Origin: Candidatus Caldarchaeum subterraneum | Lineage (GTDB): Archaea > Thermoproteota > Nitrososphaeria_A > Caldarchaeales > Caldarchaeaceae | Length of the DNA stretch: 64,000 bases | Direction of reading: 5' to 3' | Assembly: GCA_000270325.1 (NCBI GenBank) | Contig: BA000048.1 | Span: 764,800 to 828,799, forward strand | Shown: positions 5,910 to 61,772 of the stretch, one piece after another | Numbering within the stretch: the first letter of the stretch is position 1 | How the letters are laid out: each line of letters opens with the position of its first letter | Made by a program: the position numbers and the translations under genes | Notes under the pieces: model-generated | The model's input: the letters and a program-made list of their open reading frames with translations, nothing else | Databases searched by the model: none | Told to the model about the DNA's origin: nothing

Positions 5910-6869
5910 AGCGAAAACAACCACCGCAAGCAGCACCACTATCACCGCGGCAGGTATCAATACATCTGTTAGAGAAGGCCCAGACGGGGCTTGTGTCTGG
6001 GTCGTGACAGCTGTGGTTGTGGTTGCCACTGTGGGTGTTGTGGTAGTCATGGTTTGGGCTGGTGTGGTTTGTTGCTGAAGGGTTATCACTGTTGTATAGG
6101 TTTCGGTAATTGTTGTACCCGGTGAAACAATTGTTGCCGTTGTTCGGCCTTCGGTTATTGTCTGGGCGGTCGTCAAGGTTGTCCCAGGATTTCTCGTCGA
6201 GGAGGTGTATGTTGTTCCTCTTCTCAGCTCGGTGTAGGTAGTTGTTAGACCTATGCTCGGCATGTCGCCGGGCATGGTAAAAGTAGTTCCTTGGAATGCT
6301 GTGGTGAAGCCGGGGAATGAGAGTCTTACTGTGGCTGGCACGGCGTCGAGGATGTAGGAGATGATTTGGCTCACTGTTCTGACGCTGCATCCTTCGACGA
6401 AAACTCCGTAGGCTGGCAGGGTTACGGTGTAACCCATTGTGGTGAATGGAATCGGCTGCAGCCCTGTTCTGGTTAACGCTGTTCCTCCCTCTGTTTGGAT
6501 AATTGTTGTGATGTATGATTGGGTGTTTATGACGGTGCTTAGGGTCGTTCCGGGGACGGCTATTGTCGTGCCTGGAATTGCGATGACGCTGGGTGGCTGC
6601 TGTGCTGTGAAGGTGATTGTGCAGGTTTGGTCGGGTTCGTAAACCTCAACTATTACCGTGTAGCCTGGGATCTGGATGGTTGCGACAATTGTTGTGGCGG
6701 AGACTGTTATCACCGTCGTGTAGGTTGTGGGACTGATTGTAACCACTCTCGTGGTTGTTGTGGTAATAACAGACTGTGTCTGTGCGGCGTTTAACAACCC
6801 TAATCCAACGAGGAATAATAATGCTGCGTAGACTAACGGCCGCACACCTATATTATTTTTCTCAGCCAT
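5892..6869 (-). CDS. threonine-rich surface protein with signal peptide and C-terminal anchor
   Basis: A 325-residue protein with an N-terminal hydrophobic stretch (PLVYAALLFLVGLGLL), a long Thr/Val-rich body with several TTTT and GTTI runs, and a C-terminal membrane helix followed by LRLRR. This is the architecture of an exported, membrane-anchored and probably O-glycosylated archaeal surface protein. The GTG at 6845, just before RPLVYAALL, is an alternative start that fits the nearby TATA better. I do not recognise an enzymatic domain. Confidence 0.7.
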   Translation of the reverse strand: MAEKNNIGVRPLVYAALLFLVGLGLLNAAQTQSVITTTTTRVVTISPTTYTTVITVSATTIVATIQIPGYTVIVEVYEPDQTCTITFTAQQPPSVIAIPGTTIAVPGTTLSTVINTQSYITTIIQTEGGTALTRTGLQPIPFTTMGYTVTLPAYGVFVEGCSVRTVSQIISYILDAVPATVRLSFPGFTTAFQGTTFTMPGDMPSIGLTTTYTELRRGTTYTSSTRNPGTTLTTAQTITEGRTTATIVSPGTTITETYTTVITLQQQTTPAQTMTTTTPTVATTTTAVTTQTQAPSGPSLTDVLIPAAVIVVLLAVVVFALRLRR

Positions 6870-6880
6870 TTATGTTTATC
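6868..6880. promoter_or_regulatory. shared TATA region between Thr-rich gene and fen
   Basis: ATTTATGTTTATC lies between two divergent genes. TTTATC is centred 30 nt before the FEN-1 ATG at 6908. On the other strand CATAAAT lies about 26 nt before the GTG at 6845 of the Thr-rich gene. Confidence 0.4.
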
Positions 6881-6907
6881 TACTGTTTGTGTGGTGTTGT
6901 TTGTGGG

Positions 6908-7942
6908 ATGGGTGTAAAGATTGGGGACATCATTCCCGGCGAGGCTGTTGAGCAGACTTCTTTGAAGAGGTTGTCGGGTAAGGCCATCGCGTTTGACGCA
7001 TACAACATTCTCTACCAGTTTCTCGCAACCATCCGTGGCCCCGATGGAAGGCCTCTGATGGATAGACGAGGCAGGGTTACTAGTCACTTGAGCGGCCTCT
7101 TCTTCAGAACCATCAACTTTCTTCAGGAGGGGCTGTTGCCTGTCTATGTTTTCGACGGGAGGCCGCCTGAGGAAAAATATCGGACTATTGAGAAGAGGGC
7201 GGTGGCCCGTGAAGAGGCTGGTAAGCTGTATGAGGCGGCGTTGGCAGAGGGTGATTTGGAGGCTGCTCGGCGATATGCCCAGCGTGCAGCAAGCTTGGAG
7301 AAATACATGGTGGAGAGCGCCGCCGACCTTCTCAAGGCCATGGGTGTTCCCTATGTGATGGCTCCTTCGGAGGGTGAGGCCCAGGCCGCTTACATGGCGG
7401 CTAAGGGCTCTGTCTACGCCGCCGGCTCGCAGGACATGGATTCTCTTCTCTTCGGCTCCCCGAGGCTCGTCAGAAACCTCTCCATCGTGGGACGTAGAAA
7501 GCTGCCCGGCCGGAAGGAGTATGTGGAGGTGGTGCCCGAGATAATCTATCTCGATAAGCTTCTCGCATCGCTTGGGTTGACGAGGGAGCAGCTGATAGAC
7601 ATAGGTCTTCTGGTTGGGACTGATTATTCGCCGCAGGTCAGGGGTGTTGGACCTAAGACGGCTTTGAAGATTGTGAAAGAGTATGGGTCGCTGGAGAAGG
7701 CTGTGGAGACAGGCGCCGTGGAGGTCGAGTTCGACGTACAGACTGTCAGGCAGCTTTTCTTGAAACCAAGGGTGACAGATGACTATACGTTGAACTGGCG
7801 TGAGCCGTCGGAGGAGATGGTGATGGAGCTTCTTGTCGAGGAGTTTGATTTTTCAAGGGAGCGTGTCGGAAAAGCGTTGGCCGAGCTTCGGCAGACTTTG
7901 TCAAAGAGGTCTAGCAGTTTAGACGCTTTCTTCAGCGAGTAG
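6908..7942 (+). CDS. fen: flap endonuclease 1
   Basis: A structure-specific 5' flap nuclease that processes Okazaki fragments and repair intermediates. The N-terminal domain has FDAYNILYQ and VFDGRPP; the internal domain has APSEGEAQAAYM, SQDMDSLLFG and GTDY. Together these supply the acidic metal ligands. The C-terminal SSLDAFF is a PCNA-interacting motif. The 344-residue length is normal for archaea. I start at the ATG at 6908 because GVKIGDIIPGE is the usual N-terminus. It overlaps the small convergent gene at 7919. Confidence 0.96.
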   Translation: MGVKIGDIIPGEAVEQTSLKRLSGKAIAFDAYNILYQFLATIRGPDGRPLMDRRGRVTSHLSGLFFRTINFLQEGLLPVYVFDGRPPEEKYRTIEKRAVAREEAGKLYEAALAEGDLEAARRYAQRAASLEKYMVESAADLLKAMGVPYVMAPSEGEAQAAYMAAKGSVYAAGSQDMDSLLFGSPRLVRNLSIVGRRKLPGRKEYVEVVPEIIYLDKLLASLGLTREQLIDIGLLVGTDYSPQVRGVGPKTALKIVKEYGSLEKAVETGAVEVEFDVQTVRQLFLKPRVTDDYTLNWREPSEEMVMELLVEEFDFSRERVGKALAELRQTLSKRSSSLDAFFSE

Positions 7943-18042: not shown

Positions 18043-18474
18043 TTGATTGGTTTGCTTGATGAAGATGAATTCAGCCGATGGCTCATGATGGCCCGCCGAA
18101 CCTTGGATTCTGCTAGAGGTGACCTTGAGAGGGGTGATTATAGCTGGGCTTGCTTCAAAAGCCATCAAGCGGCGGAATATGCAGTCAAAGCTCTTCTTCG
18201 TGGTGTTGGTGAGACTGCACATGGTCACAGCATCTCTAACTTGGTCAAGAGGTTGTCCACGGTCGATTTCTCGGAAATATTGGAGCAAGCGAAGGCTCTG
18301 GATAAATTCTATGTTCCCACACGTTATCCGGATGCATGGCCTGAGGGAATCCCTGTTGACTATTATACGGAGAAAGATGCTATTGAGGCTTTGAGGTCGG
18401 CGGAGAAGATTTTGGACTGGGTGGTGAGGGTTTGGAAATCGTTAGGCGGCGGAGAGAGCAGCGGGAGGCGGTGA
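18043..18474 (+). CDS. HEPN domain protein (probable toxin of HEPN/MNT pair)
   Basis: A 143-residue helical protein with the HEPN signature GDYSWACFKSHQAAEYAVKALL, followed by RGVGETAH, which fits the RX4-6H RNase motif. HEPN proteins paired with MNT nucleotidyltransferases act as RNA-cleaving toxins neutralised by the partner. The frame opens at a TTG at 18043, with TTG at 18052 also possible; both lie at leaderless distance from the TATA at 18017. It overlaps the MNT gene by 43 nt. Confidence 0.85.
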   Translation: MIGLLDEDEFSRWLMMARRTLDSARGDLERGDYSWACFKSHQAAEYAVKALLRGVGETAHGHSISNLVKRLSTVDFSEILEQAKALDKFYVPTRYPDAWPEGIPVDYYTEKDAIEALRSAEKILDWVVRVWKSLGGGESSGRR

Positions 18475-44695: not shown

Positions 44696-44814
44696 CTCTG
44701 TGAAGTTGAAGAAAATGTTGCTAAAAATGTTTCGCCGCTGCTAAATGTCTCCTTTTTTCAGGAGTTGCTTCAATGGAGATATGAGCTTATAGCGTGGCTG
44801 TGGGTTTACAGGTC

Positions 44815-45990
44815 ATGGCTTCGCTGGCTATACGTGGCGGTGAGCCTGTTAGGCGGAGGCCTTTTCCCCGCTGGCCTTTTTCCGATGATGAAGAGGTTAG
44901 GGAGGTTTTGGAGGTATTGCGTGAGGGGCCCTGGTCCGCCGGCTCATCGAAGATTAGGTTGTTTGAGGAGGAGTTTGCGTCTTTTCATCATGCGGGTTAT
45001 GGTGTGTCATGCACCAGCGGCTCGGTTGCTTTGTTCGTGTCGCTTAAAGCTTTGGGCTTGGGCCCGGGCGACGAGGCCATCGTCCCCGCCTACACCTTTC
45101 TCGCAACAGCAACCGCAGTCATAGACACTGGGGCCACACCCGTCATCGTCGACATAGACCCCACAACATACAACATCTCCCCCGAAGCCGTCTCCAAAGC
45201 AGTCACCGAGAAAACCCGATGCATCATACCCGTCCACCTCGCAGGCTGTCCAGCCGACATGGACAAGATCTTGGAGACAGCTGAGAAGCATGGGTTACGG
45301 GTTTTGGAGGATGCTGCACAGGCCCATGGCGCCGAGTGGAGAGGCCGCCGCGTAGGCTCTCTCGGAGACATGGCGGGGTTTAGTTTCTACCAGAGCAAGA
45401 ACATGGCCGCTGGAGAAGGGGGGATAATCACCACAAACATTGAAGAATTGGCCGAGTTGGCGCGGAGCTTGGTGAACGTTGGACGGGATGTGAGGCGCGG
45501 ATGGTATGAACATGTGAGATATGGCTGGAATTTCCGGATGACCGCTTTTCAAGCAGCGGTTCTCAGGGCCCAGCTGCGGAGACTACCTGAACTCAATAGG
45601 AAGAGAACCCGGTCGGCGGAGTTTTTGGATGAGAGTCTGAGAGCGATTGATGGCGTGGAGCCGCTTGAAAAGCCGCCGCAGGTCACGGCGCATAGCTATC
45701 ATCTCTACATCGTCCGGGTCGACGTCAAGAAATTCGGGTTCAGCGCAAAAGAGGAGTTTGTGAAAGCGTTGAACGCCGAGGGGATACCGTGCAACGCGGG
45801 ATACAGGCCGCTGAGCAGCTACTGGTTCATCGCCGAGAAATCACGTGTCCCGATGCCTTTGAAAAACACCGAGAAAGCATGCCAGTACGAGGCTGTGTGG
45901 ATTCCACAGTATGTTCTGCTGGGTGAGCGTGAAGACCTTATGGATGTTGTCGAAGCCTTCGCCAAGCTGAGAAAAGCCGCTGGGTCTTAG
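44815..45990 (+). CDS. DegT/DnrJ/EryC1-family sugar aminotransferase
   Basis: A 391-residue PLP enzyme. CTSGSVALFVSLKALGLGPGD binds the cofactor phosphate, AIVPAYTFLATATAV and VLEDAAQAHGA follow, and the Schiff-base lysine is in SFYQSKNMAAGEGG. It transfers an amino group to a keto-sugar nucleotide or related cyclitol; the product is unknown and no other sugar gene adjoins. GCTTATAG at 44785-44792 gives a leaderless start at the ATG at 44815. It ends 4 nt inside the convergent AbrB-like gene. Confidence 0.9.
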   Translation: MASLAIRGGEPVRRRPFPRWPFSDDEEVREVLEVLREGPWSAGSSKIRLFEEEFASFHHAGYGVSCTSGSVALFVSLKALGLGPGDEAIVPAYTFLATATAVIDTGATPVIVDIDPTTYNISPEAVSKAVTEKTRCIIPVHLAGCPADMDKILETAEKHGLRVLEDAAQAHGAEWRGRRVGSLGDMAGFSFYQSKNMAAGEGGIITTNIEELAELARSLVNVGRDVRRGWYEHVRYGWNFRMTAFQAAVLRAQLRRLPELNRKRTRSAEFLDESLRAIDGVEPLEKPPQVTAHSYHLYIVRVDVKKFGFSAKEEFVKALNAEGIPCNAGYRPLSSYWFIAEKSRVPMPLKNTEKACQYEAVWIPQYVLLGEREDLMDVVEAFAKLRKAAGS

Positions 45991-46544
45991 ATTTCCCATT
46001 TCCACGCGAGATTCTTCTCGAGACGGGATGGTGCTTTCGAGAGAAGAGCAGGGTCCACCTGCCTGTTCTCCACAACCACTTCAGAGACCTCGGCTGATTT
46101 GACCACGCCGCCCAGAGACTCCACCTCGCGCAGGAGACTGGGGAGAAGCTCCTGCACAGACTCAACGGTTTTAGGCAGTTTGACACGGTTTTTCTCCACG
46201 GCTGTGAAGACCGCGTAACACGCCACCGAGTTGTTTTCAGACTTCTTCAGCACAACGTTTGTCGCATCATATTTCTTCAGCAAATTCTCCAAGCTCTGGA
46301 AATCCACCCCCTCCACCACGAGATCAAGCCGCGGCGCCTTCTCAAGCACCACGAAGAAGCCGAGATATATCTGGAGAGCTCCCTCAAAGTCGGGGCTGGC
46401 TCTCGTCATCCCGACTATGGTGTATTCCTGCCCCTCCCGTATCAGAAAACGCTGAGAAAGCTCGGGAGGGATGGTTGCGATTAAGCTGTTACCGCTTCTT
46501 CTGATGACGCCGCGGAAAACAACCGTGTCCTCAACCCATGACAA
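45987..46544 (-). CDS. AbrB/SpoVT-like DNA-binding protein with long C-terminal domain
   Basis: A 185-residue protein. Residues 10-45 (FRGVIRRSGNSLIATIPPEL, then FLIREGQEYTI) match a swapped-hairpin AbrB-type DNA-binding motif. The remaining 140 residues form an alpha/beta domain I do not recognise, probably for sensing or oligomerisation. The frame starts at a TTG at 46544, 13 nt after the tandem-HxlR gene, so the two regulators form an operon. Confidence 0.75.
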   Translation of the reverse strand: MSWVEDTVVFRGVIRRSGNSLIATIPPELSQRFLIREGQEYTIVGMTRASPDFEGALQIYLGFFVVLEKAPRLDLVVEGVDFQSLENLLKKYDATNVVLKKSENNSVACYAVFTAVEKNRVKLPKTVESVQELLPSLLREVESLGGVVKSAEVSEVVVENRQVDPALLSKAPSRLEKNLAWKWEI

Positions 46545-46557
46545 ACTCTTCGCCTAT

Positions 46558-47127
46558 TTATGCAGAGGCTCCGACCGTATAAAGGGTTTGTGTTCCGGGC
46601 TTATGGAAAGCATTTAGCCACGCCGCTAGAAGTCTTCCTCTTGGGGTTAGGCTGTATTGCACGCGGATGGGGCTTTCGCAGGTTTGAACCATTCTCTCTA
46701 CAAGACCGTGTCTACATAGTTTTCTCAGCCTGTCGGAGGCGATTTTCCAGCTGAGTCCCGGGAGAGAGTCGACGAGCTCGGCGCTGTGGAGAGGCCCATC
46801 TCCAAGTGTCTGGAGAATTTCTTTTGACCATTTGCATTTCAGCACCTCGGCCAATACATGTGACGGGACATGAGGTAGAAGTGGTTTAACCAGCTCCCCT
46901 ATCTCGCGGCCCTTTTCCGTCAATATGTAGCCGGATACATCCATGGAGACAAGCTGATGTTTCATTAGGTTTGAAAGCTTGTGTGCCAGTACTTTCTGGC
47001 TTATGCCGAGGCTTTTGGCGAGGTCGGCGAACCTCCGCGGCCCATCGACCATCGAAACTATGATGGGCACTGTCCATTTGCATCTGAACACCTCCGAGGA
47101 AAACTGGTGCGAAACAGCTCTCAGCAT
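46558..47127 (-). CDS. tandem HxlR-type transcriptional regulator
   Basis: A 189-residue protein with two HxlR/MarR-like winged-helix units in one chain. Unit 1 starts VFRCKWTVPIIVSMVDGP (about 13-30) with SQKVLAHKLSNLMKHQLV as recognition helix. Unit 2 starts VLKCKWSKEILQTLGDGP (about 95-112) with ASDRLRKLCRHGLVER. Each begins with the same CKW, so the cysteines may be redox sensors. HxlR proteins are normally single-domain dimers; this looks like a covalent dimer. I use the ATG at 47127. It is divergent from protoglobin. Confidence 0.83.
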   Translation of the reverse strand: MLRAVSHQFSSEVFRCKWTVPIIVSMVDGPRRFADLAKSLGISQKVLAHKLSNLMKHQLVSMDVSGYILTEKGREIGELVKPLLPHVPSHVLAEVLKCKWSKEILQTLGDGPLHSAELVDSLPGLSWKIASDRLRKLCRHGLVERMVQTCESPIRVQYSLTPRGRLLAAWLNAFHKPGTQTLYTVGASA

Positions 47128-47172
47128 TCCTTTACGCAGAAACACCGCTGAGCCTTTTTTAAGTTTTAGAGG

Positions 47173-47188
47173 GTTACCAAAAAGTAAC
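47173..47188. promoter_or_regulatory. palindrome between tandem-HxlR gene and protoglobin
   Basis: GTTAC-CAAAAA-GTAAC (47173-47188) is an inverted repeat in the 116-nt divergent gap. A TTAAAAA-type TATA for the HxlR gene lies just beside it at about 47156-47163. A candidate site for the HxlR or AbrB-like regulator encoded next to it. Confidence 0.45.
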
Positions 47189-47243
47189 AGCCTAACCGTT
47201 TGGAAACCATTTGCTCAAATATCGTCACATGATCGGGTTTGTC

Positions 47244-47834
47244 ATGGTTCAGCAGATTCCAGGATACACATATGGAACAAGAGAGGTTCCGCAGGCCCCT
47301 GTTTCGGACGAGGAGTTCCGCCTGCTTAAGACAACGGTTTTGATGACCGACGAGGATATCAGGTATCTCCGCATGGCTGGTGAGGTTCTCCGCGACCAAG
47401 TGGATGACGTGCTCGACCTCTGGTATGGCTGGGTAGGCTCCCACAAGCATCTCGTCTACTACTTTGGCGACCGCAAGTCAGGCCAGCCGATAGGCGAGTA
47501 TCTACAGGCTGTGAGGAAAAGGTTTGGTCAGTGGATTCTAGACACCTGCTTCAGAGAATATGACAGGGATTGGCTCAACTACCAGTATGAAATCGGGCTA
47601 CGCCACCACAGGAGCAAGAAAAACAAAACAGATAAAGTGGACTCGGTTGACCACATCCCGCTACGCTACCTCATCGCCTTCATAGTGCCTATAACAGCCA
47701 CCATCAAGCCGTTTCTGGCGAAGAAAGGCCATTCACAGGAAGATGTCGAGAAGATGTATGCGGCGTGGTTCAAGGCCGTGACGTTGTCGGTTGCACTGTG
47801 GAGCATACCCTACGCGAACAAGGGCGAGTGGTAA
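47244..47834 (+). CDS. protoglobin
   Basis: A 196-residue haem protein of the protoglobin family. IPGYTYG opens the chain, as in Methanosarcina acetivorans protoglobin, and VLRDQVDDVLDLWYGWVGSH, RFGQWILDTCFREYD and YEIGLRHHRSKKN follow. The haem-binding proximal histidine is one of His121/His122. Protoglobins bind O2, CO and NO; their role in archaea is unsettled. The ATG at 47244 gives the usual N-terminus; ATG at 47229 is also in frame. It is divergent from a regulator operon. Confidence 0.93.
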   Translation: MVQQIPGYTYGTREVPQAPVSDEEFRLLKTTVLMTDEDIRYLRMAGEVLRDQVDDVLDLWYGWVGSHKHLVYYFGDRKSGQPIGEYLQAVRKRFGQWILDTCFREYDRDWLNYQYEIGLRHHRSKKNKTDKVDSVDHIPLRYLIAFIVPITATIKPFLAKKGHSQEDVEKMYAAWFKAVTLSVALWSIPYANKGEW

Positions 47835-60766: not shown

Positions 60767-60876
60767 TCTAATCCAAACAACAACTCAGCTGACATAAAAA
60801 CACGAGCATAAAGAGCCACGCCCCTTAGAAAATGATAATAACAAGCTTTATGTATTACGTTGTATTCCCCGAAAAG

Positions 60877-61236
60877 ATGACATCTATTGTAACTGTGCGC
60901 CTGTCCAAGCCTGACCTGAAAAGGATTGAAGAATTAAGGAGAGTGGAAAATGTTGACCGTTCCACTCTAATCAAAATGTTTATTGACGAGGGAGTGAGGA
61001 AAAGGGTTGTTGACCTTTATCGACAGGAGAAGTTGACGGTAGGGCGTGCGGCGGAGATTCTGGGAGTTTCGTTACGTGAATTCTTGGAAATTTTGGAAAA
61101 GGAGGGTGTCCCTGTTAACTGGGACATTGCAGGTATTCGGGAATATATGAGGGATAAAAATTTGAAACGCTTTGAAAGGTGGTGGTGGACAAACACTCTT
61201 CTTAACGATGAAGAAATACAATACAAAGCAGAGTAG
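60877..61236 (+). CDS. UPF0175-like antitoxin with N-terminal ribbon-helix-helix
   Basis: A 119-residue protein. The N-terminus (VTVRLSKPDLKRIEELRRVE) looks like a ribbon-helix-helix DNA-binding unit. The middle (YRQEKLTVGRAAEILGVSLREFLEIL) is the UPF0175 helix-turn-helix. The C-terminal 30 residues are unusual and Trp-rich. TTTATGT at 60847-60853 is centred 27 nt before the ATG at 60877. It lies 8 nt before a DUF3368 PIN-like gene, a known toxin-antitoxin pairing. Confidence 0.85.
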   Translation: MTSIVTVRLSKPDLKRIEELRRVENVDRSTLIKMFIDEGVRKRVVDLYRQEKLTVGRAAEILGVSLREFLEILEKEGVPVNWDIAGIREYMRDKNLKRFERWWWTNTLLNDEEIQYKAE

Positions 61237-61244
61237 GGAGTAGT

Positions 61245-61772
61245 TTGCCGAGTGCGGTTTCTGACGCTGGACCGCTTATTCACTTGGCCCAGATAAACAA
61301 GCTACATCTTCTAAAGATGCTCTACAATCAAGCAGTCATTACTCCACGAGTGAAAAGAGAAGCCTACGACATGGGGGCGAAACATGGACATGCTGACGCC
61401 ACAATAGGGAAAGCAATAGAAGATGGTTGGATAAAGGTAGAAAAGTTACAAAAACAGCTAATTTCATCCTCCAAAAAATTAGCGAGTAAGGAGAAAATTT
61501 CACAAGCTGATGCCGAAACGCTTCTTTTGGCTAAAGAGAAAAAGGCAGAAATTCTTGTTGATGAAAAAGCCCTCTCGAATATTGCACGGCTGCACGGATT
61601 AAGGGTCTGGAGCACTTCAATTCTGCTGGAGGCCTTAAGTCGGGGATATATTGAAGTCTCAGACATTGAGGCAGCTATAAGACAACTCGACGAGAAAAGG
61701 CATAAACTAAAACGCGAACATGTTGAACAAATTCTAGAAGTAGCCAAAACTATAGCTTGTAGACGAAAGTAA
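61245..61772 (+). CDS. DUF3368 PIN-like toxin
   Basis: A 175-residue PIN-fold ribonuclease-like protein. The acidic residues are visible in SDAGPLIHLAQINKLHLL (Asp), the TPRVKREAYD segment (Glu), QADAETLLLAKEK (Asp/Glu) and ILVDEKALSNIAR (Asp). It is the likely toxin of the UPF0175 partner, cleaving RNA when free. The C-terminal helical tail is Lys/Arg-rich. This pair is noticeably more AT-rich than its neighbours. Confidence 0.87.
   Translation: MPSAVSDAGPLIHLAQINKLHLLKMLYNQAVITPRVKREAYDMGAKHGHADATIGKAIEDGWIKVEKLQKQLISSSKKLASKEKISQADAETLLLAKEKKAEILVDEKALSNIARLHGLRVWSTSILLEALSRGYIEVSDIEAAIRQLDEKRHKLKREHVEQILEVAKTIACRRK

Follow-up and report, generated by a model that had tools for sequence, protein, structure and literature searches.

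A tandem HxlR-family protein encoded divergently from protoglobin in Caldarchaeales, a candidate dedicated and possibly thiol-responsive regulator

In the window, i.e., the 64,000-nt stretch of the Candidatus Caldarchaeum subterraneum genome analyzed here, a protoglobin gene (pgb; 47244..47834, plus strand, 196 aa) lies divergently from a gene encoding a regulator with two HxlR units in one chain (hxlr2; 46558..47127, minus strand, 189 aa from ATG 47127). This arrangement had been proposed in the original prediction and was confirmed: the pgb product matched PF11563 over the full-length domain (E 4.7e-33, 114.9 bits, cut-off 25), two PF01638 stretches were found in the single hxlr2 frame, and the predicted open frames, domains and palindrome in the shared gap were all located where they had been placed. 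The pgb product is homologous over its full length to the protoglobins of Methanosarcina acetivorans and Aeropyrum pernix (E ~1e-80), and it shares with them the distal WY motif and the proximal-His stretch (the two motifs are present in the alignment with M. acetivorans and other archaeal protoglobins); the globin itself shows nothing unusual in this comparison. Because the alignment to solved protoglobins begins there, ATG 47244 rather than TTG 47211 is the likely start of pgb; a putative TATA-like stretch, identified by sequence reading (47217..47222, plus strand), lies approximately 25 nt from it. The gene was found in 17 of the 61 nearest genomes including that of the window, with orthologues in 16 other Caldarchaeales, and the copy in G004 is frame-broken. 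In the G004 locus (L079, approximately 6333-6911 with pgb oriented plus), two single-base indels relative to G007 and an in-frame stop were observed in pgb, and the tandem HxlR gene and the left half of the intergenic site are also gone, which could be real pseudogenization and co-loss or an assembly error; this locus was accordingly given little weight. The Caldarchaeales genome G007 encodes, separately from its single-domain protoglobin, a globin-coupled chemoreceptor-like protein (L161, 1426-2868). Elsewhere in the window, sequence reading pointed to a toxin–antitoxin-like pair (60832-61772), in which a small DNA-binding-like protein precedes a PIN-like one, and to a HEPN-like protein (18043-18474).

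The two PF01638 stretches of the hxlr2 product (E 4.6e-28, 97.3 bits in total, cut-off 20.8) each exceed the cut-off separately within one open frame. Its start is likely ATG 47127 rather than the alternative GTG 47145, since the former is approximately 31 nt from a putative TATA-like stretch (47155..47162, minus strand, sequence reading); the spacing of about 25–31 nt between such stretches and the starts of both hxlr2 and pgb would fit leaderless archaeal transcripts. The chain comprises two winged-helix repeats, and for its AlphaFold model (pLDDT 87.7) the best Foldseek matches in the PDB were YodB, QsrR, HypR and HxlR, all of the HxlR/DUF24 fold. By domain content and predicted fold, the protein thus belongs to the HxlR family. 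The tandem single chain is preserved in 12 of 12 orthologues, which share 30–80% identity, and repeat 2 of the window protein is 43% identical to repeat 1 of the G039 protein over 54 residues, an arrangement consistent with internal duplication. The known HxlR/DUF24 regulators YodB, HypR, QsrR and HxlR of Bacillus and Staphylococcus have the winged-helix fold common to both repeats, and a candidate site with two-fold symmetry and invariant cysteines are further points of resemblance. They are, however, single-domain chains acting as homodimers, whereas two units are joined per chain here, and they neighbor genes for quinone, formaldehyde or hypochlorite enzymes rather than protoglobin. Of 398 genomes sampled across the phylum, 12 encode the full tandem HxlR, and eleven of these also carry pgb; in a thirteenth matching genome (G337), only one repeat was covered.

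Between the two genes lies a conserved inverted repeat, GTTAC-N6-GTAAC (47173..47188; GTTACCAAAAAGTAAC, minus strand GTTACTTTTTGGTAAC), which is a candidate operator. It is the sole exact copy within the complete 1.68-Mb genome (G000); chance alone predicts about one copy of this motif with ten fixed bases at that genome size, so the palindrome by itself proves little and its conservation in relatives carries the weight. Across families, the spacer is alignable chiefly at GGTTACTTTnnGGTAAS and then at a third half-site just past the second half (TAACC at 47193..47197 in the window; TAACC, TCACC or TTACC with the same spacing in most relatives), the remainder being poorly alignable, and the information content is 1.6 bits per column inside the site versus 0.5–0.8 in the flanks. 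The footprint GTTACTTnnnGGTAA[C/G] (GTTACTTnnnGGTAAS) occurs once per genome in eight genomes, each time between hxlr2 and pgb and with the G000 site in the opposite orientation to the other seven. The pattern GTTACTTNNNGGTAAS, with its one copy in each of the eight genomes, contrasts with zero occurrences of the reversed-pattern control. In the window's genus, both halves are exact in G000 only and degenerate in G001, G002 and G003. No genome-wide regulon was found with the strict patterns: G000 has one copy of the palindrome, and each of the eight genomes has one copy of the fuller pattern. The site is centered 46–67 nt from the start of hxlr2 and 64–76 nt from that of pgb, and it lies upstream of the TATA-like box of each gene.

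The hxlr2–pgb pair is conserved in three families of Caldarchaeales, and the two genes are divergent and adjacent in ten genomes (G000, G002, G003, G005, G007, G008, G011, G018, G020 and G039), while the flanking genes change by genus. In the window's genus, the pair is flanked by DegT and AbrB-like genes on one side and PDCD5 and TldD genes on the other; in genus g5, it is flanked by a block of translation-factor-type genes and a block of oxidoreductase-type genes (named partly by sequence reading), and in G005 and G007 the flanks differ again (names outside the window also by sequence reading). That the flanks vary while the pair persists implies that hxlr2 and pgb stay together as their surroundings change. 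Co-occurrence of the tandem HxlR with pgb in the 44 genomes of the class was significant (Fisher p 6e-6, kinship ignored). The original prediction took protoglobin genes of close relatives lying apart from these regulators as counter-evidence, and such cases were found in part: in the five genomes of genera g8 and g10, pgb occurs with neither the tandem HxlR nor the strict site, and in G001 hxlr2 and pgb are separated. It could be argued that hxlr2 and pgb are merely old linked genes with no functional connection, as shared ancestry can preserve gene order and g8 and g10 retain pgb without the regulator; yet this is highly improbable given that the flanks on both sides vary by genus around a persistent pair, that a site both unique and conserved lies in the spacer, and that in G001 the right half of this site and the third half-site are still present at pgb even though hxlr2 is located elsewhere. 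The comparative sequence evidence makes a strong case for a link between the two genes, and the tandem HxlR is very probably a dedicated regulator of protoglobin.

Several further features of these loci were noted. In G003, approximately 1.2 kb is inserted between hxlr2 and the site (L066, approximately 6070-7290 with pgb oriented plus), and the insert carries small genes, one of which was read as a retropepsin-like aspartyl protease-like gene. In G016, the twelfth genome with the tandem HxlR, in which pgb was not found, the contig ends inside the site. In three g8 genomes (G026, G028 and G032), pgb lies downstream of a HisG-like gene. The pgb loci of g8 and g10 (L072, L075-L078), which lack the tandem HxlR, have in common an upstream palindromic element, GTCGAC-N3-GTYGAC; it is not unique and was set aside, as further copies are present at other places in those genomes and also in G000.

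On the other side of hxlr2, a gene on the minus strand (45987..46544) encodes a protein with a weak, sub-threshold match to SpoVT-AbrB/MazE (E 0.014, 15.8 bits, cut-off 24.7), for which the name AbrB-like is reasonable but unproven. The original prediction counted it as the third member of the gene set, and within the window's genus, where it lies 13 bp downstream of hxlr2 in the same orientation, the two genes may be co-transcribed. This claim did not survive the comparison: most f1 and f4 genomes have the gene whether or not they have pgb, in all eight f1 genomes it converges on a DegT aminotransferase gene (44794-45990 in the window), and it adjoins hxlr2 in only three of the four genomes of the window's genus. 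The AbrB-like protein, whose steady partner is DegT, was therefore ruled out by distribution and synteny as part of the switch and is judged a bystander, leaving almost no room for a three-gene gas-responsive switch that includes it.

The tandem HxlR carries one CKW cysteine in each repeat, Cys16 in repeat 1 (codon 47080..47082, minus strand) and Cys98 in repeat 2 (codon 46834..46836, minus strand). The original prediction had staked itself on both, and both are kept in all 12 orthologues, where they are among 25 invariant alignment columns; no invariant His accompanies them in this alignment, and in the alignments inspected, the single-domain HxlR paralogues of these organisms have other residues, e.g., serine, in place of the CKW cysteine. 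In HxlR, the sensing residue is Cys11 and the GGK motif ends at Lys23 (PMC7835342). The tandem HxlR cysteine directly precedes KW, in the position of the second Gly of GGKW, whereas Cys11 of HxlR lies approximately 12 residues upstream, and neither repeat of the tandem orthologues has the classical DUF24 sensing cysteine, which would lie about 12 residues ahead of the KW lysine. A residue-for-residue analogy with YodB, HypR and the formaldehyde sensor HxlR consequently fails, and as read from the alignments the tandem HxlR does not match the defining features of the known HxlR/DUF24 redox subgroup at this level; classical formaldehyde sensing via Cys11-Lys13 was considered and is unsupported, the position not being conserved. 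Nevertheless, in the predicted model Cys16 and Cys98 each sit where the first helix of their repeat meets the second, and the elements known to move upon HxlR activation include helices alpha1 and alpha2 (PMC7835342), so the tandem HxlR may still act like the redox subgroup. Since the CKW cysteines are not at the classical sensing position, they could also have a structural or metal-ligand role. If so, the tandem HxlR would control protoglobin in response to a metal, haem or a small ligand rather than thiol oxidation, with the cysteines serving as metal or Fe-S ligands or as structural residues. Such a reading would account for the single cysteine per repeat at an unusual place beside an otherwise conserved KW, and the MarR regulators near other protoglobins (described below) have a C-x2-C...C...C arrangement that resembles metal or Fe-S motifs; but a metal would be poorly held by two cysteines without additional ligands from a dimer, and no invariant His goes with them, which leaves this a minority possibility of some standing. 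We put the chance that the tandem HxlR senses an oxidant, NO or an electrophile through its cysteines at about even.

Taken as a whole, our favored explanation, which we consider somewhat more likely than not, is that the tandem HxlR regulates protoglobin in a dedicated and probably thiol-responsive manner. Its two winged-helix units would correspond to the two subunits of an ordinary HxlR dimer and would read the inverted repeat GTTAC-N6-GTAAC plus the third half-site between the divergent promoters, thereby controlling pgb and, where the site adjoins the hxlr2 promoter, also its own gene. Modification of the paired invariant cysteines by an oxidant, NO, a persulfide or an electrophile would alter how the two DNA-binding heads are set. 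The protoglobin under this control would serve to bind or detoxify O2, NO or reactive nitrogen species in these archaea, the majority of which have a haem-copper oxidase. In archaeal promoters, a site upstream of the TATA box is better suited to activation than to repression. Because the candidate site lies upstream of both TATA-like boxes and not over them, activation is somewhat likelier than repression, and we lean slightly toward the tandem HxlR acting as an activator. Within the class, a COX1-family oxidase above the cut-off was found in 15 of 16 protoglobin genomes versus 9 of 28 without intact protoglobin (Fisher p 9e-5, kinship ignored), which would fit a role of protoglobin in organisms that meet O2 or NO. 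The COX1 family also includes NO reductases, and the co-occurrence cannot separate O2 handling from NO detoxification. Alternatively, protoglobin could itself be the sensor and form with the HxlR protein a two-part gas-responsive regulator, e.g., through direct contact, as the near-obligate genetic coupling of the tandem HxlR to pgb would allow and as might be expected of members of the sensor-globin lineage, to which protoglobins are assigned (PMC4020757). This is improbable, because elsewhere the same protoglobin is paired with a MarR protein or with no regulator, for which a target gene is the better fit.

A second type of regulator was found beside protoglobin in other lineages. A MarR protein with four C-terminal cysteines (MarR-Cys4) is encoded within 3 kb of protoglobin at all four close Thermoproteota loci (G141, G189, G233 and G303), including the A. 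pernix-like locus (G141, L165), where it adjoins pgb in place of a tandem HxlR. It was also found near protoglobin at 18 of 39 bacterial loci, i.e., 18 of 25 when Nitrosomonas is left aside and none of the 14 Nitrosomonas loci. Examples are L162 2009-2560, L163 930-1511, L165 2114-2701, L181 990-1511 and L024 1804-2436, among others, and the four cysteines (C-x2-C...C...C) are invariant in 19 aligned sequences. No specific curated Pfam or NCBIfam model was found for four members scanned, which matched generic MarR models, and when 44 Caldarchaeales genomes were searched with a MarR-Cys4 profile, a single match, weak and frame-broken, was obtained. The literature library searched held nothing relevant on HxlR proteins with globins or on protoglobin with MarR proteins. 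Like the tandem HxlR, MarR-Cys4 is a winged-helix regulator with invariant cysteines that is linked to protoglobin; it differs in belonging to another family, in having a single winged helix with a Cys4 tail, and in being mostly co-directional or convergent with protoglobin, whereas the tandem HxlR is divergent. Two distinct putative cysteine-bearing regulators, as judged from their sequences, are therefore paired with protoglobin. The archaeal sequences group in a single clade of the protoglobin tree (99/94), which is nested within bacterial sequences that mostly have a MarR neighbor, and on the simplest reading Caldarchaeales would have exchanged the MarR partner for the tandem HxlR; G007 is placed outside the other archaeal rows, leaving room for more than one transfer. 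It is conceivable, and we propose it tentatively, that archaeal and bacterial protoglobins are commonly under dedicated cysteine-bearing winged-helix regulators, with MarR-Cys4, the regulator in many lineages, replaced in Caldarchaeales by a two-headed HxlR thiol switch in one chain that would read a unique site.

The physiological role of protoglobin has been described as still unknown (PMC3680402). In Caldarchaeales, it is now paired with a probable regulator that has a defined candidate site and two invariant cysteines, and the signal that switches the tandem HxlR, once found, would reveal what protoglobin is for. The tandem HxlR, in which nature has joined a 'dimer' in one chain and the cysteines occupy a new position, would also help the study of sensing in the HxlR family, and the pairing of MarR-Cys4 with protoglobin puts the same question within reach of cultured Aeropyrum, Thermoflavifilum and Flavobacterium. 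If protoglobins are indeed under dedicated cysteine-bearing regulators, protoglobin would be a stress-induced defence protein against reactive nitrogen or oxygen.
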